Shown in pieces: positions 8,155 to 63,628 of a stretch of 64,000 nt of DNA. Numbering within the stretch: position 1 is the first letter of the stretch; each line of letters begins with the position of its first letter. The DNA is taken from positions 1-64,000 of the forward strand of contig NZ_CP119148.1 of the NCBI RefSeq assembly GCF_029167645.1, in the 5' to 3' direction. A program made the position numbers and the translations under genes. The notes under the pieces are model-generated. The model saw nothing but the letters and a program-made list of their open reading frames with translations. It was not told the DNA's origin and did not search any database. The DNA comes from Streptomyces sp. AM 2-1-1. Lineage in GTDB: Bacteria; Actinomycetota; Actinomycetes; Streptomycetales; Streptomycetaceae.

Positions 8155-8294
8155 GCCAGGTTCGCCCCTTGCCGCCCGATTCGCCCGACTCTGTGTGGCA
8201 GGGAGAAATCTCTGGTCTCTGTCCACAGGGCTGCCGCTGAATCCTGCTGGGGAGTCGTCGTGATCCACGCGGCGACCGCAGTTGAGGAGACGTC

Positions 8295-36849: not shown

Positions 36850-37613
36850 ATCGGACGATCAGCGTCATCACAGCCGTCTACTCAGGTGGTGAAAACTACC
36901 TCGCCGACGCGGCGCAGTCCGTACGGGAGCAGCGGGACTCCCTGCCCTTGGGGTGGGACGTGCAGTGGGTCGTCCAGGAGGACGGGACCACAGGTTCTCC
37001 GCTGCGCGATCTTCCCCCTGAGTCGTGGATCTCGCGCGGACAGGCACGGCGCGGTGGTGCAGCCGTGGCGCGCACGATGGCGCTGCCTCGTGCTACCGGA
37101 GAACTGGTCAGAACTCTGGACGCGGACGACCTGCTCGCGCCTGGCGCGCTCGCTCGCGACATTGCCGCACTGGAGGCCCATCCGCAGGTCGGTTGGTGCA
37201 TCTCCTCGGGGCTTGACCTCCTCCCTGACGGCACTACTGTGCCCGGGCCGTATGACCCGCCCGAGGGACAACTGACCTACGAGGAACTCCTGTCCGCGTA
37301 CGACGCGAACCTGTTCTCCGTACTCGGAACGCACCTGACGGTCCGAAAATCTTTGCTTCATGCACTGGGCGGCTGGCCTGCCCTGCCGGCGTGGGAAACG
37401 GTCTCGATCGTGCTGCGATGCGCTGCCGTCAGCCCTGGGTGGATGATCGCCGCACCTGGCGGCCTCTATCGCAAGCATGCCGAACAGACCACGGCGCGCT
37501 CGTCCTACACGCAGACCGCGGACTTTGCCGAACTGCGTTCACTCGTGAGGGCGCAGGCTGAATTCCTGCGCACGACCGGATGGCGTTGGTGCCCGAATCC
37601 CGTGGAAGAGTGA
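36846..37613 (+). CDS. family-2 glycosyltransferase
   Basis: A 255-residue GT-A fold glycosyltransferase. It opens ISVITAVYSGGENYLADAAQ, has VVQEDGT, GAAVARTMALPRATGELVRT and the nucleotide-sugar motif LDADDLL (DxD). The C-terminal acceptor part is GTHLTVRKSLLHALGGWPAL. Such enzymes move a sugar from an NDP-donor to a cell-surface or small-molecule acceptor. GTG 36846 overlaps the regulator stop, with GGAG upstream. No membrane span; substrate unknown. The pairing with a transfer-type repressor is unusual. Confidence 0.85.
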   Translation: MNRTISVITAVYSGGENYLADAAQSVREQRDSLPLGWDVQWVVQEDGTTGSPLRDLPPESWISRGQARRGGAAVARTMALPRATGELVRTLDADDLLAPGALARDIAALEAHPQVGWCISSGLDLLPDGTTVPGPYDPPEGQLTYEELLSAYDANLFSVLGTHLTVRKSLLHALGGWPALPAWETVSIVLRCAAVSPGWMIAAPGGLYRKHAEQTTARSSYTQTADFAELRSLVRAQAEFLRTTGWRWCPNPVEE

Positions 37614-38812
37614 CCTATGGCCGTCCCGCCTGACGGGCGAACCGTTTCCCGTTCACCGTCTGGCGGGCGCAGCATTCCGGGCACCTCGGACGCTTCTCGA
37701 ATTCGTCCCGCAGTTCTGTCGGGTCGTGCGGTTAGGCTGTGCCCAGAAGTGATCCATAACGACGAGAACCCCAGCGACCGGGCCTGGTCTGCTGGGGCAT
37801 CTCGAACGGGGCTAAGCCTCGTTGGGCGACACACCTTGATGGGAGGTGCTCGTGGGATGAAGGCTACCCGCCGACGCGGAACTACACGCGCCGCTTCGCC
37901 GTTTCTCCATCGCGCTCACGCCATCGGGTGCGCCCCTGCGCATGCTGACGCCAACCTCCGTGTTCAGGGGGTTGGGATGACCTAGCCAGCCATCAGCCGT
38001 ACGCGCCAACAGAAGGTGGACTCGCAATCCCCTTCGGCCTCGCACGGCCCGTCTACCGCCTGGACTCGCAACCCAGAACGGTTCTCAGATCCCGGTTCGC
38101 AGCCGGTCCTGAGCTGCGGCTTATCAAGCCGCTCATTTCAAGTCGGCCCCTCATCAGGGCCACGCAGTACCCGCGGGCCCCGGCAAGGGGCTTCGCGGTC
38201 GCACCAAGTCCGTCGACAGAAAAGGATCCGCCTCTGGCCTTCGTACTCAGCCCACTCCTCACAGAGGGGGCTCCCGCGCATTCACACGAACCACCGAGTC
38301 GCGCTCCCGGCAGGGGGCTCGTCTGCGTTGATCCATATGAAGGCTGGTATCGCCATAGTGCACGAGCTTCGGTCGGCTTGTCAGGTCGGCCACGATCAGG
38401 TCAGTACCTCCGGGGTGGAGATTTCCGCAGGTTGCGGTATCTCCACCCCGGAGATCGTGACGTACATCACACCGCTTGCGTGTCACGCGAACGCTTCGCC
38501 GGAGGCGGGTTCGACCGCCCGAGTTTTCTCCGGCCGGACTGTCACACCGGCGCCTTCGGCGACACCTGTAGTAGATGTGACCACCTTTTTCGCCACCGCC
38601 GTCTCGACCACCTTCGCCGTCCGCGGTCTGTCTCGCGGGACGCGATCTGAGGTTGTTGCCCGCCGTGCGGGAGCGCGGGGGGTGATCCGGGCTGAGTGGG
38701 CTCTGTCCACAGGCCAGCCGGTAGAGGCTGCCGGGATGATCCGTTCCCACACCCCTGTCTCCGTGACCTGCGCTGTTCTGTCCGCCCCGGGTGTTCGAGG
38801 GGTGTTCCTGTG
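37614..38812. other. 1.2-kb gene-free region upstream of rep (origin candidate)
   Basis: No frame here has a convincing start, ribosome site and protein-like composition. Small hairpins occur at 37770-37800 and 37811-37829 (AACG.GGCTAAGCC.CGTT). A nested cruciform lies at 38408-38453. Partial direct repeats containing GACCACCTT and TCGCC run over 38578-38621. Position directly before rep, and structure, suggest a replication origin. Confidence 0.5.
38408..38453. promoter_or_regulatory. nested perfect cruciform upstream of rep
   Basis: CTCCGGGGTGGAGAT pairs perfectly with ATCTCCACCCCGGAG (15 bp); inside the 16-base loop CCGCA pairs with TGCGG. It lies about 360 bases ahead of the rep start and is far from any gene end, so it is unlikely to be an ordinary terminator. 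Non-coding sequence with strong secondary structure beside rep has been reported as essential in some Streptomyces linear plasmid origins. Confidence 0.7.
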
Positions 38813-41404
38813 ATGGCGAGTGCGGCGGCTGCCGTTCCCCGTCAGTTGCCGGGCCGTCCGGTGGGGGGTTCGCGTCGGCTGCGGTCGGTGCCGGCGCAGG
38901 CTGGTCCGGCGCCGGTGCGGAAAGCGGGGCCTGCATTGGCATTGGGCAGTGACATGAGGGCCCGGCTGGGTGGTGCGGTACGTGCGCTGCTGAGCGCGGA
39001 CGGTCTCCAGGGTGCGCCGGATTCGGTGCGGCTGGCGGTGCTGGTGCTGGCCTCGCGGACACCCTGGGAGACGGGTGAGGTCGAGATCTACACGCGTGAG
39101 CTGGGCCGGTGGATCGGGCTGTCTAAGTCCCATACGGCGAACGCGGTCGTCCCGGCCCTGCGCAACTCCGGCGTCGTCGCGGCGGAGACGGCGGAGGGCG
39201 AGTTCACGCAGGACGACGGGCTGCTGTGCGAGGTCGAGCCCATGAAGGCGGCCCGGGGTGTGGTGGGGCACCCGTTGAACCTGGCGAAGAAGGAGCTGGC
39301 CACGTTTCTGGCGCTGATGGAGGCCGTGATGGCGCCGGGCTGGGCGCGCCGGGACAGGTCGGTCACTCCGGCCGGGTTGCTGGGGGAACGGACGGGCCGG
39401 GGTGCGGCGACGGAGCGTCTGGCGCTGTTGTTGTTGGTGCTGGAGGCGCGGGAGAACGGGTGGGTGCGGCTGCGCGGCGGCCGGGTGGATACACAGCGTG
39501 GCCGTCCGGTGGCGACTCTGGCCCGGCTGCTGGGCTGCACTGTGTGGGTGGCGGAAGGAGTGCTGGAGCGGCTGGAGGCTATGGAGCTGGTGGTACGGCC
39601 CCGGGTGAAGACGGGGTCCAAGCTGAACCACCGGGCGCGGCTGGTGGTGCCGGCGGTCGCCGCCGCGCACGGCCGCAGGGCCGCTCTTCGCGTCGTGGAG
39701 GAGCGTGCGGAGGCTCCGGATCCCGGTTTTTCAGACCCCGGCGCTACGGTAGGGCCTAGTGAGCCCTTGGGTGCCGAGGAAGAAGTGCAGGTCAGCAGCC
39801 CGGAAGAAGGCGGCTTCCCCGAGTTTTCAGACCCCGGCGTTACAGGAACCCTTCACACTGATCACACTCACCTGGTTCCTCCCGTCGGTTCTCTGCAGGT
39901 CTCTGGTGGCTTTTCCGGCGAAGGCCGTGGAGCGGAAGGTCCGCTGCCGGAGGACGCGTGCGAGCGCGAGGACCAGGCCGCCGATGGCGAAGACGCCGCG
40001 GCCGTCCCCGGCCCGAGGTCGGCTGAGGTCGGCCCGCTGCGCGGGGAACAGCCCAAGAAGTCCCCGGCCGATGATCGCGAAGAACAGCCAGCTGCCCGGC
40101 CTGGTGCCGGTGCCCGGCCGCAGGCCGTTCGTGGTGAAAAAGCGCAGCAGCAGAGGCGCGTGGACCTGCCGGAGGAGTCTGGCCTGCGGGTGGCACTGGG
40201 GCCGGTCTCGTGGCTGTGGCAGGGGCTGTCCAAGTTCCAGCAGGCCCGGGTCCAGCAGGCCGCCGAGGCGGAGCTCGGGCGGCTGGAAGGCTGGACGGGG
40301 CAGCAGGAGCTGGCGGCCCGCCGACTGGCGTCCCGCCTCGCCGCTCGACTGGACGAGACCGGCGGCGAGGCCCTGGTCGACCGCCCGTACGGGTGGCTGA
40401 TCGGGCGGGGCCTGGTGCAGCGCCAGGCGTGCGCGGACCGGCGGTGCGACGACGGAACCCGCCTCGACACCGGTGCCGCCTGCGAGAGCTGCGCCAACGT
40501 GCTCCACATCCGCCGCGCCCACCGCGCCCGGATCGCGGCCGAGGTCGACCAAGAGCTGCCCGGCCTCGATGACGCCGCCCGCCGACAGGCCGTCGAGGAA
40601 CGGCTGCGCGCCCTGACAGCCGTCGACGCCGAGCGGTTCGTACGGCGCCGCGAGGAGGCCCGCGTCCGGGAGGCCGAGCGTGAAGCGGCCCGTGCCGCCG
40701 CCCGGGAGCGGGCGGAGCTGGAGCGCCAGGCCGCGGCCGTCGCCGCCACGGTGCGCCAGGCGCTGGCGTGCGAGGACTGCGGGCAGACCGGGGCCGGTGG
40801 GCTCTGCGAGGCGTGCGGGTGCCGCCGCGAGACCGAGACGCTCACCGCCCGGGCCGTGCAGCTCGTCGCGGCGCGGACGCTCGACCCTGCGGCCAGTGCG
40901 GCTGACGTCGCGGCCCTTAATGTCAGGGTCCGTACGGCCATCGACCGCAAGGTCGCCGCCGAGTGGGCGCAGTTCCTGGAGATCACCGACCCGGCTGAGC
41001 TGGAGGACGACCAGGAGCGCGCCGGCCTCGCGGCCGCGCTCACCGCCCACAGCACCGTCCAGCAGATCACCGACCAGGCCGCGGCCAGCGCGCTGGCCGC
41101 GTTCGGCCGGACCGACGAAGCCGACACCGAAGCGGACCGGGCCTACCGGACCGAGCAGGGGCGCCGCTGGTTCCAGCACAACCCGACCGGTGAGGCCGCC
41201 GTCGCCGCCGCGACCAAGGCCTCCGCCACCGCCCGGAACCGGGTCGCCCAGCACCTGCTCGCGGTGCGCCTGGAGCAGCTGCGCGAGCAGGCCACCACGG
41301 TGCGCCCGACCGGACAGACCGGGGCCGGGTCGTGGACGGACCGGCTGCCGGAACTCGCCGCCCGTACCCTCGGCGGCGCCACCGCCGGGGTGGTGATCGC
41401 GTGA
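38813..41404 (+). CDS. plasmid replication initiator-like protein with winged helix and zinc sites
   Basis: An 863-residue protein from ATG 38813 (GAGGGG upstream). Residues about 45-210 form winged-helix units (DSVRLAVLVLASRTPWETGE, WIGLSKSHTANAVVPALRNS, then VWVAEGVLERLEAMELVV), as in Rep proteins. The middle is acidic and low-complexity with a repeated FSDPG. The C-terminal half holds GPVSWLWQGL, RPYGWLIGRGLVQRQACADR, a cysteine cluster (CADRRC...CESCANVLH, about 541-565), a second (CEDCGQTGAGGLCEACGC, about 652-669) and long helices. I assign it to linear-plasmid Rep proteins by layout and position; no helicase motif is seen. Stop overlaps the next start (GTGA). The C-terminal 425 residues are duplicated at 44640. 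Confidence 0.65.
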   Translation: MASAAAAVPRQLPGRPVGGSRRLRSVPAQAGPAPVRKAGPALALGSDMRARLGGAVRALLSADGLQGAPDSVRLAVLVLASRTPWETGEVEIYTRELGRWIGLSKSHTANAVVPALRNSGVVAAETAEGEFTQDDGLLCEVEPMKAARGVVGHPLNLAKKELATFLALMEAVMAPGWARRDRSVTPAGLLGERTGRGAATERLALLLLVLEARENGWVRLRGGRVDTQRGRPVATLARLLGCTVWVAEGVLERLEAMELVVRPRVKTGSKLNHRARLVVPAVAAAHGRRAALRVVEERAEAPDPGFSDPGATVGPSEPLGAEEEVQVSSPEEGGFPEFSDPGVTGTLHTDHTHLVPPVGSLQVSGGFSGEGRGAEGPLPEDACEREDQAADGEDAAAVPGPRSAEVGPLRGEQPKKSPADDREEQPAARPGAGARPQAVRGEKAQQQRRVDLPEESGLRVALGPVSWLWQGLSKFQQARVQQAAEAELGRLEGWTGQQELAARRLASRLAARLDETGGEALVDRPYGWLIGRGLVQRQACADRRCDDGTRLDTGAACESCANVLHIRRAHRARIAAEVDQELPGLDDAARRQAVEERLRALTAVDAERFVRRREEARVREAEREAARAAARERAELERQAAAVAATVRQALACEDCGQTGAGGLCEACGCRRETETLTARAVQLVAARTLDPAASAADVAALNVRVRTAIDRKVAAEWAQFLEITDPAELEDDQERAGLAAALTAHSTVQQITDQAAASALAAFGRTDEADTEADRAYRTEQGRRWFQHNPTGEAAVAAATKASATARNRVAQHLLAVRLEQLREQATTVRPTGQTGAGSWTDRLPELAARTLGGATAGVVIA

Positions 41405-43010
41405 CCACCGTCCAGCCGGAGCTGAGCGGGGTCGACCTCGCGCGCCAGGCCCTGACCGCCGCCCGGGAAGCGGCGAAGAAGAACGGCGCCACCGCCAAGA
41501 AGCCTAAGCGGCGCACCACCACCGTCGTACGGCGCGATGGGCGCGAGCCGCTCGGGCTGGGCAGTGCGATCAGCCGGATGCTGACGGAGCGCGGTATGAC
41601 CGGCCCGGCCGCTGGCGGCAGTGTCCTCGCCCGGTTCGACGCGATCCTGACCGTGGTCGCGCCGGAACTCGTCGGCCGGGTCCGGGCCGTGGGATACGAC
41701 GCGGACACCGGCCGTCTGGACGTCGTCCCCGACATCCCGGCGGTCGCCACGAAACTCCGCTGGACCGCCCCGAAGCTGGCCGCAGCCGCCAACGCGCAGG
41801 TTCCCGGAGCGAACGTCCGCACCGTGCACGTCCTGCCGCCCGCGCCCGCGACGGCCGGCCCCGCCGTGGCAGCCGAACCGGTACCGCCGACGGTGCCCGC
41901 CGGACCTGCCGTGCGCCTGCCCGCACCGGCCGGCTACCACGAGGCGCTCGCCGCCCACCGCGCCACCCGGCAGGAGAAGACGGTCACCGACTCGAAGGTC
42001 CAGGCCGCCGCCGAACGGCAGATCCGCGAGCAGGCCCGTGAACCGGAGGAACTCTTCGGTGACGGCCGCAAGGCCCTCGAGGAACTCGCCGCCAAGGCCG
42101 CCGCTCAGCAACGGGCCGCGACCTCCAGCGACGCGGCCCGGGCCCGAGCACTACAGCGCCTCGCCGCCGAACGAGCTGGTCTCACCACGATCCCACCGGC
42201 GGGCGTGCGTGAACCTCTGCACCGTACGGCCTGATCACACGGTGTGCGCCGGGTGGGAAATCAGGGTGATCGGCTGCGAAGCGAAGGAGGTGACTGTCAC
42301 CCTGGCTGGAGAGGAAAGGGCGGGGAACGTGCGGCGTGACAAACGGCAGATCCAGACGGCGGTACTCGGCAGCGCGGATTCCGAGGAGCCGCTCGTTCTG
42401 CCGCTGGAGGCCATCGAACTGGACGCCTTCCGCACGGTCCACGAGCGCGACTCCTTCTGGTGCGGGCTTCTTCTCGGCGGCTGTGGTGGCCGGCTGACGA
42501 CGAAGCTCTACACCGACCGGGTCTGCCACTTCGCGCACGTGCATCCCGGCCCCGACGGCCAGCCCCACATCTGCGGTCGCCGCGCCCGAGGCATCTCCAG
42601 CGCCGACCACTTGTATGTGAAGTCCGCTGCCGCCGCCTGGTTCCGGAACAGGGGCGAGGAGGCCGATATCGCCTTCGCCCAGCCGAGCGGGGCACCGGTC
42701 GGCTCGCTGGTGGACATCACCTCCCGTCACCGCCGGCTGCGCGTGCACCTGGACCAGGTGGTGGAGCCGGTGTGGGACGACGACGGCATCGAGCCGGTGC
42801 TGGGGATGTCGGTGCCGGTCGACCGGGACACCCTGATCCGCCGCTGGTACGTGCACCGGATCCGGCTGGACAGCAAAGGCACCGCCCGTCGGGTGCAGAT
42901 CGGCACCGAGGCGTTCGCGCGGCCCGTCGAGTGGTTCGAGCTGAACACGTGCACGATGACCGAGCGCGGCCTGTCGACACCGGCGGTAGAGAAGATCATC
43001 CGCTCCCGTA
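40125..43010. repeat. replication-module duplication, unit 1
   Basis: From about 40125 to 43010 the sequence is repeated 4.51 kb downstream (44644-47520). Identity is highest from the rep C-terminus through the DciA-like gene to the first 30 codons of the CoiA-like gene; for example 41405-41530 and 45918-46043 differ at about one base. A single codon indel in rep shifts the offset from 4516 to 4513. Confidence 0.9.
41401..42234 (+). CDS. DUF721/DciA-like protein, copy 1
   Basis: A 277-residue protein from GTG 41401, overlapping the rep stop. Residues about 45-145 match DUF721/DciA: GREPLGLGSAISRMLTERGM, FDAILTVVAPELVGRVRAVG, YDADTGRLDVVPDIPAVATK and LAAAANAQVPGANVRTVHVL. DciA is the bacterial partner that helps load the replicative helicase DnaB. 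Placed right after rep, it may recruit the host helicase to the plasmid origin. The C-terminal part is a helical Arg/Glu tail. A near-identical copy lies at 45914-46747. Confidence 0.75.
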   Translation: MTTVQPELSGVDLARQALTAAREAAKKNGATAKKPKRRTTTVVRRDGREPLGLGSAISRMLTERGMTGPAAGGSVLARFDAILTVVAPELVGRVRAVGYDADTGRLDVVPDIPAVATKLRWTAPKLAAAANAQVPGANVRTVHVLPPAPATAGPAVAAEPVPPTVPAGPAVRLPAPAGYHEALAAHRATRQEKTVTDSKVQAAAERQIREQAREPEELFGDGRKALEELAAKAAAQQRAATSSDAARARALQRLAAERAGLTTIPPAGVREPLHRTA

Positions 43011-44044
43011 CCAGCCGGCCCGCCCCGGCCTGGACGGCTGGCAGGGCACGCAATGCCCCGGCCTGGACGGCTGATACGGCACACAAAGCCCCGGACGCCG
43101 AGCGGCCGCAGGTTCTGCTGTGCCAGCTCGCCGACGCCCGCAAGGTGGGGGCCGTCGTCGTCGTGTCCCGGCTGTGTGACCAGATCGCCGAGGTCACCGG
43201 GGCCGAGGAGGAAACGCAGGCACAGCTGGGGGCCGCCGTCGCGGATGCCAGGCGCTGGCTGGAGCAGCAGACCGAGGTCCGCCGCAGCCTCCTCGCCGAT
43301 CTGGACGCCGCTGTTGCCGCAGGCCGTACCCAGCGTGTTCGGACGCTGCTCACTCACGTCAACATGACCGCCGGCCCCGATCGCACCGAGGAGGAGATCC
43401 GCGTGGTCGGCGCGGCCGCCGACCACGTCGCCTCGGTCGCCTCGGCGGCGGCCGAGCGCGTGCATGCCCTCCTGGAGGGCCTCCGCAGCCTCCCCCAGAA
43501 CCGGGCCAAAGACCAGCTGCGCCCCCAGGTACAGCAGCTGATTCAGGCAGCGGCCCAAGTCGGCCGTCTTCTCGGGCAGCGCCAGCAGATCCAGATCGCT
43601 GCCTGGAAGGTGCGCGCGGGCCTCGACAAGCCGGCCCCGGCCCAGACAGCCGCGCCCCGCACGCCGGTGGGGTGGCCACAGCAGCGCCCGCAGCTGCACA
43701 AGCAGGTCGCTCGGCGGCACTGGATCAAGACCAGCTGTCCACGCTGCCGGGCGGGCAGCGGCCAGGAGTGCGTCATCGGCAACGGGAGCCGCACCCGTCA
43801 GGTGCGGCACGTGCCCCATGACGAGCGGCTCCAGCCGATCATCGACGAACGCAGGGAACGGCAGAGGAACCAGCCGAAGCCGCCGCCCCCGTGGCGGGTG
43901 TATGAGGTGACCTGTCCTGACTGCGGCCAGGGCGCTGACGCCCGGTGCACGACGACGGGCGGCCCGCACCGCTCACGCGTCGAACGGGCCAAGGAGTTCA
44001 CCCGCCTTCGAAAGCCCCGGCCCGAGACCGGCACAGAGGCGTGA
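42329..44044 (+). CDS. CoiA-like zinc protein, copy 1
   Basis: A 571-residue protein. GTG 42329 is chosen because the corresponding GTG is kept in copy 2 with the same GAGAGGAAAG site. The first 110 residues resemble the CoiA nuclease-like family (CGGRLTTKLYTDRVCHFAH, then CGRRARGISSADHLYVKSAA): a zinc-type C...HFAH...C followed by S..H...K, and GSLVDITSRHRRLRVHLDQ as the putative nuclease core. A long helical middle follows. The end carries two zinc knuckles (SCPRCRAGSGQECVIGNGSR and TCPDCGQGADARCTTTGGPH). A duplicated PAWTA segment is at about 232-252. Function on the plasmid is unknown; DNA processing is a guess. Confidence 0.6.
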   Translation: MRRDKRQIQTAVLGSADSEEPLVLPLEAIELDAFRTVHERDSFWCGLLLGGCGGRLTTKLYTDRVCHFAHVHPGPDGQPHICGRRARGISSADHLYVKSAAAAWFRNRGEEADIAFAQPSGAPVGSLVDITSRHRRLRVHLDQVVEPVWDDDGIEPVLGMSVPVDRDTLIRRWYVHRIRLDSKGTARRVQIGTEAFARPVEWFELNTCTMTERGLSTPAVEKIIRSRTSRPAPAWTAGRARNAPAWTADTAHKAPDAERPQVLLCQLADARKVGAVVVVSRLCDQIAEVTGAEEETQAQLGAAVADARRWLEQQTEVRRSLLADLDAAVAAGRTQRVRTLLTHVNMTAGPDRTEEEIRVVGAAADHVASVASAAAERVHALLEGLRSLPQNRAKDQLRPQVQQLIQAAAQVGRLLGQRQQIQIAAWKVRAGLDKPAPAQTAAPRTPVGWPQQRPQLHKQVARRHWIKTSCPRCRAGSGQECVIGNGSRTRQVRHVPHDERLQPIIDERRERQRNQPKPPPPWRVYEVTCPDCGQGADARCTTTGGPHRSRVERAKEFTRLRKPRPETGTEA

Positions 44045-44157
44045 CCTGACGAGGCCCCCCCTTTGCCCGAGAGGCTGGGTTCAGCGGAAGGAACATTCCA
44101 CGACTCAGCTACATGTCCACCATTAGATCCGACTGAAATTACGACGAGGGAGTATTC

Positions 44158-44337
44158 GTGCTTGAGAGCCCTGAAGCTAAAATGTGGGGTTTCATTTTCA
44201 TCGCGGCAGTTGTCGGGATATTTGGCATTGTCTGGGGTTCCAGTACAGGGAACGCTGTGGCGCTCGTAGCAGGGGCCGTCGCAACCGCAGGCGCCCTGAG
44301 CTTTGCGATCATGATGATCCGTCGTACAAAAGCTTGA
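44158..44337 (+). CDS. 59-residue two-span membrane peptide
   Basis: A short gene from GTG 44158 with GAGGGAG upstream. The product has two hydrophobic segments (WGFIFIAAVVGIFGIVWG and AVALVAGAVATAGALSFAIM) and a basic end (IRRTKA). Its base composition is lower in GC than its neighbours. It lies between the two copies of the replication module. Confidence 0.65.
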   Translation: MLESPEAKMWGFIFIAAVVGIFGIVWGSSTGNAVALVAGAVATAGALSFAIMMIRRTKA

Positions 44338-44352
44338 AGGTAGCTTCTGCGG

Positions 44353-44619
44353 TCAATTGAAGGTGCAGGAGCAGGTCAACGGCGGCCCAGTCCCGCAGGA
44401 GCCGAAGAAGCCTGCCATCAGAGCCAGAGCGACGGCGTAGATCATTGCGAACCGTCCGTGCTTGCGGCCCAGCAGAAAAGGGCGGGTCTCGGTGCTGAGC
44501 CACCAGGAGACGCTGGGCAGCGTCGTGAAAGCGAACGCTGCGAGCGGGACGAAGATCTGCAGCCAGAAAGTGCAGGTTGTCCTCTGCGGGCAGCCGCTGG
44601 CCCCACCGGTGGCCCGCAC
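44353..44619 (-). CDS. small membrane protein reaching into the duplication junction
   Basis: An 88-residue minus-strand frame from GTG 44619. The body is protein-like: TCTFWLQIFVPLAAFAFTTL, then SWWLSTETRPFLLGRKHGRF, and a second span FAMIYAVALALMAGFFGS. The start region runs into the start of the duplicated rep sequence, so the original 5' end may have been replaced and the gene may be broken. It faces the 59-residue gene. Confidence 0.4.
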   Translation of the reverse strand: MRATGGASGCPQRTTCTFWLQIFVPLAAFAFTTLPSVSWWLSTETRPFLLGRKHGRFAMIYAVALALMAGFFGSCGTGPPLTCSCTFN

Positions 44620-45917
44620 GGTGCAGAAACGACCCGCGGGCTGTTCGTGGTGGAAAGACGCAGCAGCAGAAGCGGGTGGACCTGCCGGAGGTGTCTGGTC
44701 TGCGGGTGGCTCTGGGGCCGGTCTCGTGGCTGTGGCAGGGGCTGTCCAGGTGGCAGCAGGGCCGGGTCGTGGAGGCTGCGGAGGCGGAGCTCGGCCGGCT
44801 GGAAGGTTGGGTCGGTCAGCAGGAGGCGGCTGCACGTCGGCTCGCGGCCCGCCTCACTGCCCGCCTGGCGGAGACCGGCGGCGAGGCCCTGGTCCAGCGC
44901 CCGTACGGGTGGCTGATCGGGCGGGGCCTGGTGCAACGTCAGGCGTGCGCCGACCGGCGGTGCGACGACGGCACCCGCCTCGACACGGGTACCGACTGCG
45001 AGAACTGCGCCAACGTGCTCCACGTGCGTCGGGCCGCCCGGATCCGGGTCGCGGCCGAGGTCGGCCAGGAGCTGCCCGGCCTCGATGACGCCGCCCGCCG
45101 CCAAGTCGTCGAGGAGCGGCTGCAATCCCAGACGGCCGCCGACGCGAAGCGGTTCGTATGGCGCCGCGAGGAGGCCCGCGTCCGGGAGGCCGAGCGGGAA
45201 GCGGCCCGCGCCGCCGCCCAGGAGCGAGCCGATCTGAAGCGTCAGGCTGCGGCCGTCGCCGCCACGGTGCGCCAGGCGCTGGCGTGCGAGGACTGCGGGC
45301 AGACCGGGGCCGGTGGGCTCTGCGAGGCGTGCGGCTGCCGCCGCGAGACCGAGACGCTCACCGTACGGGCCGTGCAGCTCGTCGCGGCCAGGACCCTCGA
45401 CCCGTCGGCCAGCGCGGTTGACGTCGCGGCCCTTGAGGTCAGGGTCCGTGTAGCGATCGACCGCAAGGTCGCCGCCGAGTGGGCGGAGTTCCTGGAGCTC
45501 TCCCCGGCTGAGCTGGAGGACGACCAGGAGCGCGCCGACCTCGCGGCCGCGCTCACCGCCCACAGCACCGTCCAGCAGATCACCGACCAGGCCGAGACCA
45601 GCGCGGTGGCCGCGTTCGGCCGGACCGACGAAGCCCAAGCCGAGGCGGATCGCGCCTACCGGACCGAGCAGGGGCGCCGCTGGTTTCAGCACAACCCGAC
45701 CGGTGAGGCCGCCGTCGCCGCCGCGACCAAGGCCTCCACCACCGCCCGGGACCGCGTCGCCCAGCACCTGCTGACGGTACGCCTGGACCAGCTGCGCGAG
45801 CAGGCCACCACGGTGCGCCCGACCGGACAGACCGGGGCCGGGTCGTGGACGGACCGGCTGCCGGAACTCGCCGCCCGTACCCTCGGCGCCGACACCACCG
45901 GGGCGGTGATCGCGTGA
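44577..45917 (+). CDS. N-terminally truncated Rep-like protein, copy 2
   Basis: An open frame whose residues from about 28 on match the C-terminal 425 residues of the 38813 Rep (shared GPVSWLWQGL, RPYGWLIGRGLVQRQACADR, CEDCGQTGAGGLCEACGC). The winged-helix half is missing. The first 27 residues come from unrelated sequence and the only in-frame start is TTG 44577 with a poor ribosome site. It may be silent, serve only to couple translation to the DciA-like copy, or yield a dominant-negative or zinc-only fragment. Both zinc clusters are intact. Confidence 0.6.
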   Translation: MSSAGSRWPHRWPARCRNDPRAVRGGKTQQQKRVDLPEVSGLRVALGPVSWLWQGLSRWQQGRVVEAAEAELGRLEGWVGQQEAAARRLAARLTARLAETGGEALVQRPYGWLIGRGLVQRQACADRRCDDGTRLDTGTDCENCANVLHVRRAARIRVAAEVGQELPGLDDAARRQVVEERLQSQTAADAKRFVWRREEARVREAEREAARAAAQERADLKRQAAAVAATVRQALACEDCGQTGAGGLCEACGCRRETETLTVRAVQLVAARTLDPSASAVDVAALEVRVRVAIDRKVAAEWAEFLELSPAELEDDQERADLAAALTAHSTVQQITDQAETSAVAAFGRTDEAQAEADRAYRTEQGRRWFQHNPTGEAAVAAATKASTTARDRVAQHLLTVRLDQLREQATTVRPTGQTGAGSWTDRLPELAARTLGADTTGAVIA

Positions 45918-47520
45918 CCACCGTCCAGCCGGAGCTGAGCGGGGTCGACCTCGCGCGCCAGGCCCTGACCGCCGCCCGGGAAGCGGCGAAGAAGAACGGC
46001 GCCACCGCCAACAAGCCTAAGCGGCGCACCACCACCGTCGTACGGCGCGACGGCCGCGAACCGCTCGGGCTGGGCAGTGCGATCAGCCGGATGCTGACCG
46101 AACGCGGCATGACCGCCCCGGCCGCCGGCGGAACCGTCCTCGCGCAGTTCGACACGATCCTCGCCGCGGTCGCGCCCGAACTCGCCGAGCGGGTCCAGGC
46201 CGTGGCGTTCGACGCGGACACCGGACGCCTGGACATCGTCCCCGCCACCCCGGCAGCCGCCACGAAACTCCGCTGGACCGCCCCGAAGCTGAGCGCGGCC
46301 GCCAACGCGCAGGTCCCCGGAGCGAACGTCCGCACCGTGCACGTCCTGCCGCCCGCGCCCGCGACGGCCCGCCCCGCCGTGGCAGCCGAACCGGTACCGC
46401 CGACGGTGCCCGCCCGACCTGCCGTGCGCCTGCCCGCACCGGCCGGCTACCACGAGGCGCTCGCCGCCCACCGCGCCACCCGGCAGGAGAAGACGGCCAC
46501 CGACTCGAAGGTCCGGGCCGCCGCCGAACGGCAGATCCGCGAACGGCTCCGGGAACCCGAAGACGACTTCGGCGACGGCCGCCAAGCCCTCGAGGAACTC
46601 GCCGCCAAGGAAGCCGCCCAGCAACGGACCGTGACCTCCAGCGACGCAGCCCGGGCCCGAGCGCTCCAGCGCCTCGCCGCCGAACGAGCTGGTCTCACCA
46701 CGATCCCACCGGCGGCCGCGCGTGGACCTCTGCACCGTACGGCCTGATCACACGGTGTGCGCTGAGCGGGAAATCAGGGTGATCGGCTGCGGAGTGAACA
46801 GGGTTACTGCCACGCTGGGTTGAGAGGAAAGGCAGGGGCACGTGCGGCGTGACAAACGGCAGATCCAGACGGCGGTACTCGGCAGCGCGGATTCCGAGGA
46901 GCCGCTCGTTCTGCCGCTGGAGGCCATCGAACTGGACGCCTTCCGCAGCTTTCATGAACAGGACTCCTTCTGGTGCGGGCTTCTCCTCGGCGGCTGCGGT
47001 GGCCGGCTGACGACGAAGCTCTACACCGACCGGGTCTGCCACTTCGCGCACCATCCCGGCCCGGACGGCCAGCCCCATGACTGTGGCCGTCGGGCCCGCA
47101 GCGTGAACAGCGCGGACCACCTCTACGTGAAGTCCGCGGCCGCCGCCTGGCTTCGCAGCCGTGGCACGCGGGCCGACTTCGACTTCGCGCAGCCGGACGG
47201 CAGCCCCCTGGGCTCCGTCGTCGACATCCAGCTCGCGCACAAGAAGCTGCGGGTGCACCTGGACCAGAGCGTGGCCCCGCAGTGGGACAGTGAGGACGAG
47301 CCGGTCCTCGGCCTCTCGGTCCCGGTGGACCAGGACACCCTGATCAGACGCTGGTACGTGCACCGCATCCGCCTGGACAGCGAAGGCACCGGCCGGCACG
47401 TCCGTATCGGTACCGAGGCCTTCGCCCGGCCCACCGAGTGGTTTTCCCTGGACGAGTGCGAGGTCACCGACCGTGGACTCTCCACCCCGGCCATCGAACG
47501 GATCATTCAGGCACACAGCA
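44644..47520. repeat. replication-module duplication, unit 2
   Basis: Second copy of the unit at 40125-43010. The left break falls at about 44640 (GGCTGTTCGTGGTGG against GGCCGTTCGTGGTGA in unit 1). Similarity fades within the CoiA-like gene after about residue 230. Confidence 0.9.
45914..46747 (+). CDS. DUF721/DciA-like protein, copy 2
   Basis: A 277-residue paralogue of the 41401 gene, equal in length, starting at GTG 45914 that overlaps the truncated rep stop. GREPLGLGSAISRMLTERGM is unchanged; FDTILAAVAPELAERVQAVA and LDIVPATPAAATKLRWTAPK show moderate change in the DUF721 core, with the tail nearly the same. Coding capacity is fully kept, so selection appears to act on it although its Rep neighbour is truncated. 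Possible role as for copy 1. Confidence 0.75.
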   Translation: MTTVQPELSGVDLARQALTAAREAAKKNGATANKPKRRTTTVVRRDGREPLGLGSAISRMLTERGMTAPAAGGTVLAQFDTILAAVAPELAERVQAVAFDADTGRLDIVPATPAAATKLRWTAPKLSAAANAQVPGANVRTVHVLPPAPATARPAVAAEPVPPTVPARPAVRLPAPAGYHEALAAHRATRQEKTATDSKVRAAAERQIRERLREPEDDFGDGRQALEELAAKEAAQQRTVTSSDAARARALQRLAAERAGLTTIPPAAARGPLHRTA

Positions 47521-48539
47521 CACCCGGGCGGGCGCGATGGACTCCGGGCAAGAAGCAGGAGACGTTGCCGCAGGACGGGCGGGCGCAGGAGCTGATGCGT
47601 CGGCTGCTTTACGCCCGCCGGACCGAGTCGCCCGACCTTACGGCGGCGGTGTGCCGCGAGATCGCCGGCCTTTCCGGAGTCAGCGCCCAACTGCAGAAGC
47701 GGCTGGAGGCCGCACATCACAGTGCTCTGCTCTGGGCAGAGAAAGAAGCCGAGTCTCGCCGCACCGAGGTACACGAGCTCAACCAAGCCGTGGCCGCTGA
47801 GAAGCTCAGCCAGGTGAAGAGCTTGATCGCCCAGGTCAAAAAGGCCACCAAAGTCGACCGGACGATGGAAGAGGAAGCGGCGATCCGCGCGGCTGCGGAA
47901 TACCTGACGGCGGCGATTCCAGCGGCACTCGCACACCTGAATAAACTTCTCGAAGAAGTAAGCCGCATTCCGGCCAACGGCGACCCGGATCTACTGGCCC
48001 TCAAGGTCCAGCAGATGACCCACGGAGCTGATGAACTCGCACGAGCCGGAAAGAAGGTGCGGCACCAGCGTGCCGAGATCTCTCTATGGAAGGAGCGGCT
48101 CGAGTCACTCCTCGCTCTCCCTCCACGCTCCCCGGTGCCGGGACCGTTGCACCAGTTGGTCGGCCGGGGGTACTGGACCACGAAAACATGCCCGCTGTGT
48201 GGAGCCGATCGCGGCCAGCAGTGCGTCACCCTGGGCGGTCCCCGCACAGGGCAATTGCGAGGCACTCCCCATGCCGACCGGCTGCGGCTCTTCCTCAGAG
48301 AGATCGGGGATCGAAAGACGGAAGAAACGGGAAGAGCGCCTACCATTTGGCAGGTGTACGACGTGACCTGCCCCGCCTGCCAGAAAGGTCCAGGGGCCTG
48401 GTGCCTGTCACCGGGCAGGCCGCACACACGGCGATACCAGCTTGCCGCAGACTTTACGCAGCAGAGAAAACCGAATACGGAAAATGAGAACAGCCAGCAA
48501 GACATCTACCAGGCCGCACCTGGCGTTCCGGAACTTTGA
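46842..48539 (+). CDS. CoiA-like zinc protein, copy 2
   Basis: A 565-residue paralogue of the 42329 gene, from GTG 46842 with GAGAGGAAAGG upstream. The first 30 residues are nearly the same as copy 1; the CoiA-type part is kept (CGGRLTTKLYTDRVCHFAHH, CGRRARSVNSADHLYVKSAA). The helical middle (residues 230-450) is unrelated in detail. The end keeps both zinc knuckles (CPLCGADRGQQCVTLGGPR and CPACQKGPGAWCLSPGRPH). The pattern, conserved ends with a replaced middle, suggests diversification of a recognition segment. Confidence 0.6.
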   Translation: MRRDKRQIQTAVLGSADSEEPLVLPLEAIELDAFRSFHEQDSFWCGLLLGGCGGRLTTKLYTDRVCHFAHHPGPDGQPHDCGRRARSVNSADHLYVKSAAAAWLRSRGTRADFDFAQPDGSPLGSVVDIQLAHKKLRVHLDQSVAPQWDSEDEPVLGLSVPVDQDTLIRRWYVHRIRLDSEGTGRHVRIGTEAFARPTEWFSLDECEVTDRGLSTPAIERIIQAHSTPGRARWTPGKKQETLPQDGRAQELMRRLLYARRTESPDLTAAVCREIAGLSGVSAQLQKRLEAAHHSALLWAEKEAESRRTEVHELNQAVAAEKLSQVKSLIAQVKKATKVDRTMEEEAAIRAAAEYLTAAIPAALAHLNKLLEEVSRIPANGDPDLLALKVQQMTHGADELARAGKKVRHQRAEISLWKERLESLLALPPRSPVPGPLHQLVGRGYWTTKTCPLCGADRGQQCVTLGGPRTGQLRGTPHADRLRLFLREIGDRKTEETGRAPTIWQVYDVTCPACQKGPGAWCLSPGRPHTRRYQLAADFTQQRKPNTENENSQQDIYQAAPGVPEL

Positions 48540-61834: not shown

Positions 61835-62011
61835 CTCCGGAGCCTTCAATAACTCCCTCAAAAACCCCCGTCCCTCAAGAACACCCGGGCACCCTTAGAT
61901 GAGGAAATCCGGGCCCCTCTGGCCGTATCTGGATCATGTCCGGCGTCCTCGCGCCACAGGTTCGGGCACAGTTCACCCGGACGCGTGGAGGCGGGCGCAT
62001 GTTCGGGCGCG

Positions 62012-63628
62012 ATGGTTCTGGCACCACTGACACTTCGGTCCATGGGGAGGGTGTCGGCGGAGAAGCGCCGGGCGGCCGTCGACCGGCTGTCCAGGCTGCG
62101 CGAGGACGAGGCGCTCACGGCCGCGCACGTGCGCACGGTCGCGGACGGGCTTGAGGTGTCGGAGCGGACGGTGTGGCGCTGGCTCGCGCCACCGAAGCCG
62201 ACCGCGCCCGCCGCCCGCCCGCGCTACGAGCTGAGCGAGACCGACCGGGCGGCGCTCGCCTTCTACCGGGGCAACGTCGCCGCGGTCCTCCGAGCCCGCC
62301 GCGCGGTGACGGACGGGGACGGCACGACGGCCGGGGCGCCGGTGCCCGACTTCCTCGCCGAGGGCTGGGCGAGCGCGAAGCCGGTCGCGGAGCGCACCCT
62401 GTACCGGGCGTTCGCCGACGGCCTGCCCCCGGCGGAGCGGGCGGCGTGGAAGACCGGGGAGGCCGGACGCCGTGCGGGCTCGGTCTACCTGCGCCGCCCG
62501 GACGCGCTGCGCGGCCGGTGCTGGGAGATGGACCACAAGCAGCTCCCAATCCTGGTGCTGCCGCCGAAGGGCAAGGCCCTCGCGCCCTGGCTGACCACCG
62601 TGGTGGACGACGGCACCCGGGCCCTGCTCGGCTGGGCCATCGCCACCGCCCCGACCTCCGGCACGGTCCTCACCGCGATGCGCATGGCCCTCACCCACGA
62701 GCCGGACGTCTCGCCGTTCGGCGCGGTGCCCGAACTCGTCCGCATCGACCGGGGTCTGGAGTTCGCCGCCGGCGCGGTCAAGGAGGTCCTCGGCGGCCTG
62801 GCCGTGGTCATGCACCGCCTCCCGGCGTTCCAGCCGCACCGCAAGGGCAAGGTCGAGCGGCTGAACCTCACCATCGAGCAGATGCTGATCTCCCAGCTCC
62901 CCGGCTTCACCGGCGGCCCGCGCGACGCCGGCGGGAAGCTGTACGGGCCGATCAAGGACTCCGTGGCCGCCCAGCATGCGGCTGAGAGCGCCGCCGAAGG
63001 TGACGGGCCGCTGCGCCTGGAGCGGTTCGTGAAGCGGTTCGCGGACTGGGCCCGCTGGTATAACACCGCCCACCGCCACCGGATGCTCGGCGGCCGCACC
63101 CCGCTCCAGGCGTGGGAGGACGACCCGGCCCCGCTGCGGCGGATCGGCGCCGACCAGCTGCGTCACCTCATGCTCGCCGGGGCGGAGCGGATCGTGCAGA
63201 AGGACGGCATCAACTTCCACGGCCTGGCCTACGTCGCCCCCGAGCTGTACGGGCGCGGCGGGCAGCGGGTCCAGATCCGCTACCTGCCGCACGACGACCG
63301 CACCATCGAGGTCTACCTGGGGACCGAGCACCTGTGCACCGCCTACCCCACCGGGCAGCTCACCCCCGCACAGACCGACGCGTTCCGCGAGCACGCCCGC
63401 GCCGAAGCCGAACGCCTCGGCCGGGAACGGCGCCGCGCCACCCGCCAGGCCCGCCGCACCCTCGCCCCCATGACCGGCGACAGCGCGCCCGCGGAATCCC
63501 GGCTCGTGGCGGCCGCCGACGGCCGTACCCGCACCCAGCGCGACCGCGACGCCGCGCTGGCCGCCCGAGCCTCCACCAGCCTGCTCGGACTGATAGACCC
63601 CACCGCCCCCGCCGACCCGGAGAGCTGA
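62012..63628 (+). CDS. TniA/TnsB-like DDE transposase
   Basis: A 538-residue Mu/TnsB/TniA-type transposase. The order is: N-terminal HTH (AHVRTVADGLEVSERTVWRW), rve catalytic core with CWEMDHKQLPILVL (first Asp), LVRIDRGLEFAAGAVKEVLG (second Asp) and HRKGKVERLN (Glu), then the Mu-transposase C-terminal beta-barrel (VQKDGINFHGLAYVAPELYG). All three acidic residues are present. ATG 62012 is a choice; ATG 62042 is possible. The stop overlaps the next start (TGATG). With its ATPase it makes a Tn5053/Tn402-like or Tn7-like element that continues past the window. Confidence 0.88.
   Translation: MVLAPLTLRSMGRVSAEKRRAAVDRLSRLREDEALTAAHVRTVADGLEVSERTVWRWLAPPKPTAPAARPRYELSETDRAALAFYRGNVAAVLRARRAVTDGDGTTAGAPVPDFLAEGWASAKPVAERTLYRAFADGLPPAERAAWKTGEAGRRAGSVYLRRPDALRGRCWEMDHKQLPILVLPPKGKALAPWLTTVVDDGTRALLGWAIATAPTSGTVLTAMRMALTHEPDVSPFGAVPELVRIDRGLEFAAGAVKEVLGGLAVVMHRLPAFQPHRKGKVERLNLTIEQMLISQLPGFTGGPRDAGGKLYGPIKDSVAAQHAAESAAEGDGPLRLERFVKRFADWARWYNTAHRHRMLGGRTPLQAWEDDPAPLRRIGADQLRHLMLAGAERIVQKDGINFHGLAYVAPELYGRGGQRVQIRYLPHDDRTIEVYLGTEHLCTAYPTGQLTPAQTDAFREHARAEAERLGRERRRATRQARRTLAPMTGDSAPAESRLVAAADGRTRTQRDRDAALAARASTSLLGLIDPTAPADPES

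Follow-up and report, generated by a model that had tools for sequence, protein, structure and literature searches.

A coupled rep–dciA gene pair in the probable replication region of a linear Streptomyces plasmid, and its partial second copy

The 64,000-nt window analysed here comprises bases 1-64000 of contig C2 of Streptomyces sp. AM 2-1-1, an 81,774-bp linear plasmid in a genome of 7.2 Mb and two contigs. It carries a replication gene, rep, whose stop codon overlaps the start of a gene for a homologue of DciA, which on sequence grounds is called a putative loader of the helicase DnaB. We favour, with moderate confidence, the reading that this is a replication region with a Rep like that of plasmid pFRL1, in which a co-produced plasmid DciA would pass host DnaB to the origin, with a partial duplication of the region downstream and a third gene that is a bystander. 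The rep–dciA pair is widespread on such linear plasmids, and is conserved but not obligatory.

The rep–dciA pair

The open reading frames (ORFs) named in a first-pass annotation of the window lie where it had placed them, and its coupling of a Rep to a DciA homologue is borne out by profile search and tree as well as by overlap of the genes and their synteny. The first copy of rep (38810..41404, + strand) encodes 863 residues from an ATG at 38813, a GTG at 38810 also being possible. The first copy of dciA (41401..42234, + strand, 277 residues) begins with GTG 41401 within the rep stop, and this 4-nt overlap recurs on pFRL1, on pSGRIFU2 and at loci such as L006.

The DUF721 domain that had been assigned to both DciA copies is found in both by profile search, near or over the cut-off. 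Against a PF05258 cut-off of 24 bits, copy 1 falls slightly short in the protein scan (23.4) but passes in the genome search (25.3); copy 2 passes in both, at 27.7 and 29.4 bits. The NCBIfam DUF721 model matches the two proteins at E 8e-8 and 2.2e-9, far below that model's full-length cut-off. The N-terminal and DUF721 regions of the plasmid proteins align with chromosomal DciA throughout. The conserved Trp of DUF721 is replaced, by Val in copy 1 and by Ala in copy 2; such replacement (Val, Ala or Tyr) is seen in 20 of 25 plasmid DciAs, including 13/13 of the window's subtype, and the Trp is kept in the other five. The plasmid proteins extend ~100 residues or more past the DUF721 region, compared with ~35 for the chromosomal DciA of this genome, whose gene adjoins recF.

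In a tree built from 25 DciAs of plasmids and 30 of chromosomes, a branch with 100/100 support separates the two groups completely, which fits a single origin for the plasmid lineage. The plasmid rows were hand-picked, with broken copies and the near relatives L009-L013 left out. On the chromosomal side the 30 best-scoring loci and that of this genome were used, and rows were required to carry an [ST]xAWA motif, by which L092 was dropped; Trp conservation on chromosomes is thus not countable from this set. Because the tree is rooted at its midpoint, it does not give the direction of transfer between the two groups. DciA matches occur in 113 of 118 genomes of the class, one in each except for this genome, with two more on C2, and another that has a weak, stop-interrupted second copy on its own C2. 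With the window protein as query, relatives turn up in 177 plasmid records, and with the L018 protein in 226; nearly all plasmid relatives are from Streptomyces. Viral contigs gave a single dciA relative (L029); its protein and one from a Streptomyces plasmid, equal in length to the contig at 91,197, are 100% identical.

One scan of genome contigs gave 23 dciA-anchored loci, taken with up to 10 kb on each side. A full-length Rep of the window's family lies directly upstream in 13; in two (L018 and L024) the upstream Rep is a different protein of ~600 residues whose sole match to the window Rep is a stretch of ~63 residues reaching the first Cys cluster. Rep fragments are present in three loci, and no Rep was detected in the remaining five. 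A third arrangement, with DciA following a helix-turn-helix Rep of ~500 residues, is seen on pSCL2, pCQ3, pSSFR1, a Kitasatospora plasmid, HUAS 15-9, S. zaomyceticus and pFRL2, on the last with a 186-residue ORF standing between the two. These Reps gave no BLASTP match to the window Rep at E 1e-3. ParA- and ParB-like genes come next after dciA on pCQ3 (by annotation) and on the QHH-9511 plasmid (L029, by eye). The pair is not obligatory, since dciA is absent at L074 and L076 (Reps of 858 and 828 residues), where the locus alone and not the whole plasmid was searched, and is degraded at L072, with the residues around the Trp site and the C-terminus gone. Loss or degradation of dciA behind Rep on these three relatives implies that the plasmid DciA is probably an enhancer rather than an absolute need.

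The Rep itself has relatives at 45-67% identity among the matches listed, and 46-62% in the alignment; a PDB sequence search gave no match. An AlphaFold2 (AF2) model predicts an N-terminal tandem winged helix, a disordered linker and a helical C-terminal half with two Cys clusters. Comparison of this model with VIA-align, which covered mainly residues 41-261 and barely sampled the C-terminal half, places plasmid Rep/RepE entries spanning both winged helices at ranks 1-6, suggesting a tandem winged-helix fold.

Control region upstream of rep

Some 0.75 kb of non-coding DNA precedes rep and is conserved in parts across plasmids. About 0.7 kb upstream of rep lies a covarying non-coding element of six helices (37995..38132, + strand), a candidate for part of the origin or for a regulatory RNA. 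In an alignment of 17 sequences, from which the structure was also derived, 96.9% of cells are paired and double changes are present at 12 of 39 pairs; none of 500 shuffles reaches the pairing or the covariation score, and slid versions are 31-46% paired. Rfam gave no match to 37995-38132 up to E 1. The element is common to plasmids with the window type of Rep and to those with the L018/L024 type. Between it and rep is a 23-nt inverted repeat (38400..38461, no strand assigned, 87% complementary).

Closer to rep, a promoter/operator-like CTGTCCACAGG element (38703..38713, + strand) is followed by a leader ORF of 25 codons (38736..38813, + strand), which starts 32 nt after the motif TGTCCACAGG and ends in a TGA overlapping the GTG/ATG start of rep. 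The motif occurs three times in the 81.8-kb plasmid, always on the + strand, at 8220, 38704 and 73696 (L004:9696). In 623 kb of related loci it occurs 27 times, all 27 on the + strand, which is that of rep, against 1.1 expected; 200 permuted 10-mers have a mean of 1.0 and a highest count of 18. This total counts ~8.5 kb twice, the pFRL2 locus L064 lying inside L070, with no site there. An ATG or GTG stands exactly 32 nt past the motif at 27 of 30 sites, plasmid and relatives together, with site 8220 among the exceptions. At 17 of the 30 a short ORF runs from +32 to a TGA that overlaps a start codon, mostly that of rep, by 4 nt, and the leader TGA is often preceded by -GR. At other sites the start codon opens genes of about 197 or 630 residues, the former presumably tpg-like.

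Is this element a site for DnaA or a promoter? The CTGTCCACAGG element has 8 of the 9 bases of the Streptomyces DnaA box, and a DnaA-box reading of TTGTCCACA-like sites upstream of rep was considered. It was dropped in favour of a promoter/operator because of the fixed start codon at +32 and because sites also stand before the tpg-like and ~630-residue genes. As judged from sequence, the TGTCCACAGG element is read as a promoter/operator common to replication genes, with a leader ORF that would couple translation to rep.

Partial second copy, third gene and other plasmid genes

The first-pass annotation had rep, dciA and a third gene occurring twice. The DNA is indeed duplicated, 40118-42936 recurring at 44634-47443 with 88.9% identity in self-comparison, but DNA before 40118 has no second copy there and the genes are not equivalent. 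The rep fragment of copy 2 (44577..45917, + strand), for which the earliest possible start is TTG, corresponds to residues 443-863 of Rep alone (86.9% identity over 421 residues); the predicted DNA-binding part, residues 1-442, is missing in its entirety. It overlaps by 4 nt an intact second dciA (45914..46747, + strand, 277 residues). The first third gene (42329..44044, + strand, 571 residues from GTG 42329) and the second (46842..48539, + strand, 565 residues) are 80% identical in protein over the first 223 aligned codons and 54% overall, and the second is 88% identical to a gene on an S. anulatus plasmid (L068). Since the duplication begins inside rep and its third gene is closer to the L068 allele, copy 2 consists of a half-length Rep, a complete DciA and another allele of the third gene, not a full trio.

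Both dciA copies are intact and, as had been noted, nearly identical in parts, with 100-nt blocks ranging from 82 to 99% identity. Their proteins are 88.4% identical, with a ratio of non-synonymous to synonymous substitution (dN/dS) of 0.47 and dS of 0.13; the Rep halves have 427 aligned open codons with no internal stop, dN/dS 0.42 and dS 0.18. The two window DciAs are mutual nearest relatives among the 55 tree rows (support 100/99), and the two copies are about equally distant from the nearest other plasmid examined (L072; 87.8 and 86.9%), which fits duplication within this lineage. A similar arrangement is seen on an S. anulatus plasmid (L078:9059-10647), where an intact dciA is overlapped by a fragment of the Rep C-terminus; the Rep N-terminus was not found in that locus.

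The third gene has an N-terminal Cys/His domain, in which C45, C66-H67-F68-A69-H70, C82 and H94-L95 are invariant in 17 rows, and two C-terminal zinc knuckles. The paired knuckles proposed earlier are present as two stretches in each copy, with Phage_zn_bind_8 scoring 28.7 bits in copy 1 and 47.8 in copy 2 (cut-off 24). The proposed CoiA-type assignment of the N-terminal domain did not survive profile search: CoiA_N reaches E 0.17 in copy 2 (11.9 bits against a cut-off of 26.3) and gave no match in copy 1, and seven of 17 third-gene relatives match at E<=1, the best at E 0.0042. With profile scores sub-threshold, the likeness to CoiA is one seen by eye, and the assignment is weak. A PDB sequence search gave no match for the copy 2 protein, and a third-gene profile gave two insignificant matches there; PHROGs matched the third genes with families of unknown function only, no relative was found among viral contigs, and a PADLOC search of four proteins gave no matches. 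Same-genus proteins at L031-L059 share the Cys/His domain and have varied, often long, C-termini; several are from single-contig genomes.

The plasmid as a whole has the terminal inverted repeats that mark a Streptomyces linear plasmid, and in self-comparison these are 348 bp long and 88.5% identical, as expected for a complete one. They begin with CCCGCGGAGCGGG, which we take to be the usual telomere start. An end-located helicase, a replication-relaxation protein, a TrwC-type relaxase and a DUF2637 protein are encoded here and also on pFRL2. An overlapping winged-helix gene pair adjoins the right end (L004:15475-16898; plasmid 79475-80898), and pFRL2 has a similarly placed pair, with one gene annotated 'replication initiation protein'; the pair is possibly a second initiator or a telomere regulator. 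A 781-residue helix-turn-helix protein (L004:3015-5360) and a 197-residue protein (L004:9728-10321), presumably Tap-like and tpg-like respectively, are encoded 4.4 kb apart and are not adjacent. Near the window end, at 61985-63628, is a gene with Mu-transposase C-terminal and integrase-core domains.

Proposed mechanism and relation to known systems

From gene order, overlaps, conservation and phylogeny, together with the suggested Rep fold, we infer how control, origin opening and helicase hand-over might proceed. A single transcript, with a start near the CTGTCCACAGG element predicted at or around 38736, would carry the leader ORF followed by rep and dciA, with overlaps of about 4 nt from one to the next. 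This architecture is seen and conserved, and its overlaps imply that Rep and loader are co-produced, probably under translational control. Rep may use its predicted tandem winged helix to bind an origin in the conserved non-coding DNA at 38.0-38.7 kb, and may open it; the plasmid DciA, perhaps touching the C-terminal half of Rep, would then hand host DnaB to the melted origin. With its own DciA the plasmid would be spared competition for the chromosomal protein. The plasmid DciA would act as a booster, with host DciA substituting where the plasmid gene has been lost. Copy 2, a second loader gene with a Rep C-terminal half and no initiator domain, may raise the loader dose or be in decay.

Several observations weigh against this reading. 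The top RepE matches of the Rep model share their Z with single winged helices, and this tie lowers our confidence. The further pair types of the six-helix element number 17, below all 500 shuffles (mean 21.8). TGTCCACAGG/TTGTCCACA is absent from the 1.5 kb upstream of rep in eight of 22 loci of the window Rep family (L012, L014, L068 and L073-L077) and in five of 11 loci with other Reps. Finally, the Rep of L029, one of the ~500-residue helix-turn-helix kind, has a C-terminal stretch of 58 residues (38%, E 1.3e-4) in common with the pSGRIFU2 Rep. The latter is related in its N-terminal part to the window Rep, and the Rep families are therefore possibly not wholly unrelated.

Might the plasmid DciA hold the helicase back rather than load it? 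As a regulator or anti-loader it would bind DnaB or Rep without loading, and would limit copy number or bar host DciA. Replacement of the Trp in most plasmid DciAs and throughout the window's subtype, the long C-terminal extension and the loss of dciA on relatives all favour this idea. In addition, according to PMC5720831, the W113A change impairs growth of M. smegmatis relying on M. tuberculosis DciA and alters the DnaB association of the C-terminal part of the protein. The same source has full-length W113A protein still binding DnaB, however, and the Trp is kept in a fifth of the plasmid proteins; dN/dS below 0.5 indicates only that some function was kept. We regard an anti-loader as unlikely. 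A role for copy 2 in trans, as a stand-alone module of Rep C-terminus and DciA acting on DnaB without origin binding, seems to us more doubtful still. Its open codons with dN/dS 0.42 and the similar truncated arrangement at L078 speak for it, but the divergence under selection may predate truncation, copy 2 has none of the three TGTCCACAGG elements of the plasmid nearby, and the fragment has nothing earlier than a TTG from which to start.

The three-part initiation system of the first-pass annotation, with rep, dciA and third gene acting together and duplicated, is highly improbable. The genes do stand in this order in copy 1, and L008, L068, L074, L076 and L078 also have the third gene no more than ~4 kb from rep or dciA; seven of the 44 loci compared have it, in a set that includes loci fetched because of it. 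Only one of the 23 dciA-anchored loci (L008) has it nearby, however, and at L074 and L076 it stands near Reps with no dciA in the locus. Of 199 same-genus genomes, 45 encode a relative of it at E<=1e-20, among them this one and several of a single contig, and copy 2 lacks the initiator domain. The low frequency at dciA loci and the presence in these genomes are the reasons for not counting it in the system, and we judge the third gene to be a neighbour of the replication pair, not part of it.

The favoured reading, a Rep with a co-produced loader, could be extended. The loader may have left the chromosomal lineage in a single event and become an exchangeable part, adopted in turn by unrelated initiators, with a common leader-ORF control element also placed before telomere-protein-like genes and with copy 2 as a free-standing helicase-directing module; we think this extension unlikely. 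Essential genes are hard to dissect, but a separate plasmid lineage of DciA could be deleted or exchanged to study DciA function, and would reveal whether an initiator can supply its own loader. For plasmid copy control, concrete handles are offered by the conserved leader and the structured element.

The first-pass annotation called the system undescribed, which is only partly so. Public records already annotate a 'DciA family protein' beside Rep, and Brezellec 2016 records one instance of dciA mobility, in Streptomyces. At title and abstract level, no other description of a rep–dciA operon was found in a search that did not extend to most subscription journals, in which papers on Streptomyces plasmid origins mostly appear. 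The literature searched also yielded neither the leader ORF and covarying upstream element nor an account of how linear Streptomyces replicons recruit DnaB. For pFRL2, PMC3212956 describes a 2.2-kb HindIII fragment of the origin that replicates; no HindIII fragment near 2.2 kb, by which dciA could be placed inside or outside it, was found in the pFRL2 record.

How does the region compare with other replicons? The closest is the 54-kb linear plasmid pFRL1 of Streptomyces sp. FR1, which has a Rep of the same family (56% identity over 846 residues), a 'DciA family protein' gene overlapping it by 4 nt, the leader and the upstream element; unlike the window, its 18.5-kb locus has no third-gene match and no second copy. 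The pairing on pSCL2, pCQ3 and pFRL2 is similar, a plasmid-clade DciA following a helix-turn-helix Rep, but these Reps, at ~500 residues, have no Cys clusters, and the genes are set apart by gaps of 9 and 11 nt or by the intervening ORF of pFRL2, with parA-parB next on pCQ3. Two-gene rep loci in which the second gene is not essential are reportedly present on pSCL2 (repC1/repC2, attributed to Wu 2006) and pSLA2-L (repL1/repL2). RepE-type initiators share only 6-8% identity with the window Rep and lack its long linker and helical, Cys-containing C-terminal half; the iteron array that is a trait of such initiators has no counterpart in 37600-38850, where no repeat array was found. Compared with actinobacterial chromosomal DciA, with which it aligns over the N-terminal and DUF721 regions, the plasmid protein stands on the other side of the tree, has a longer C-terminus, has mostly lost the Trp, and has Rep as its partner.

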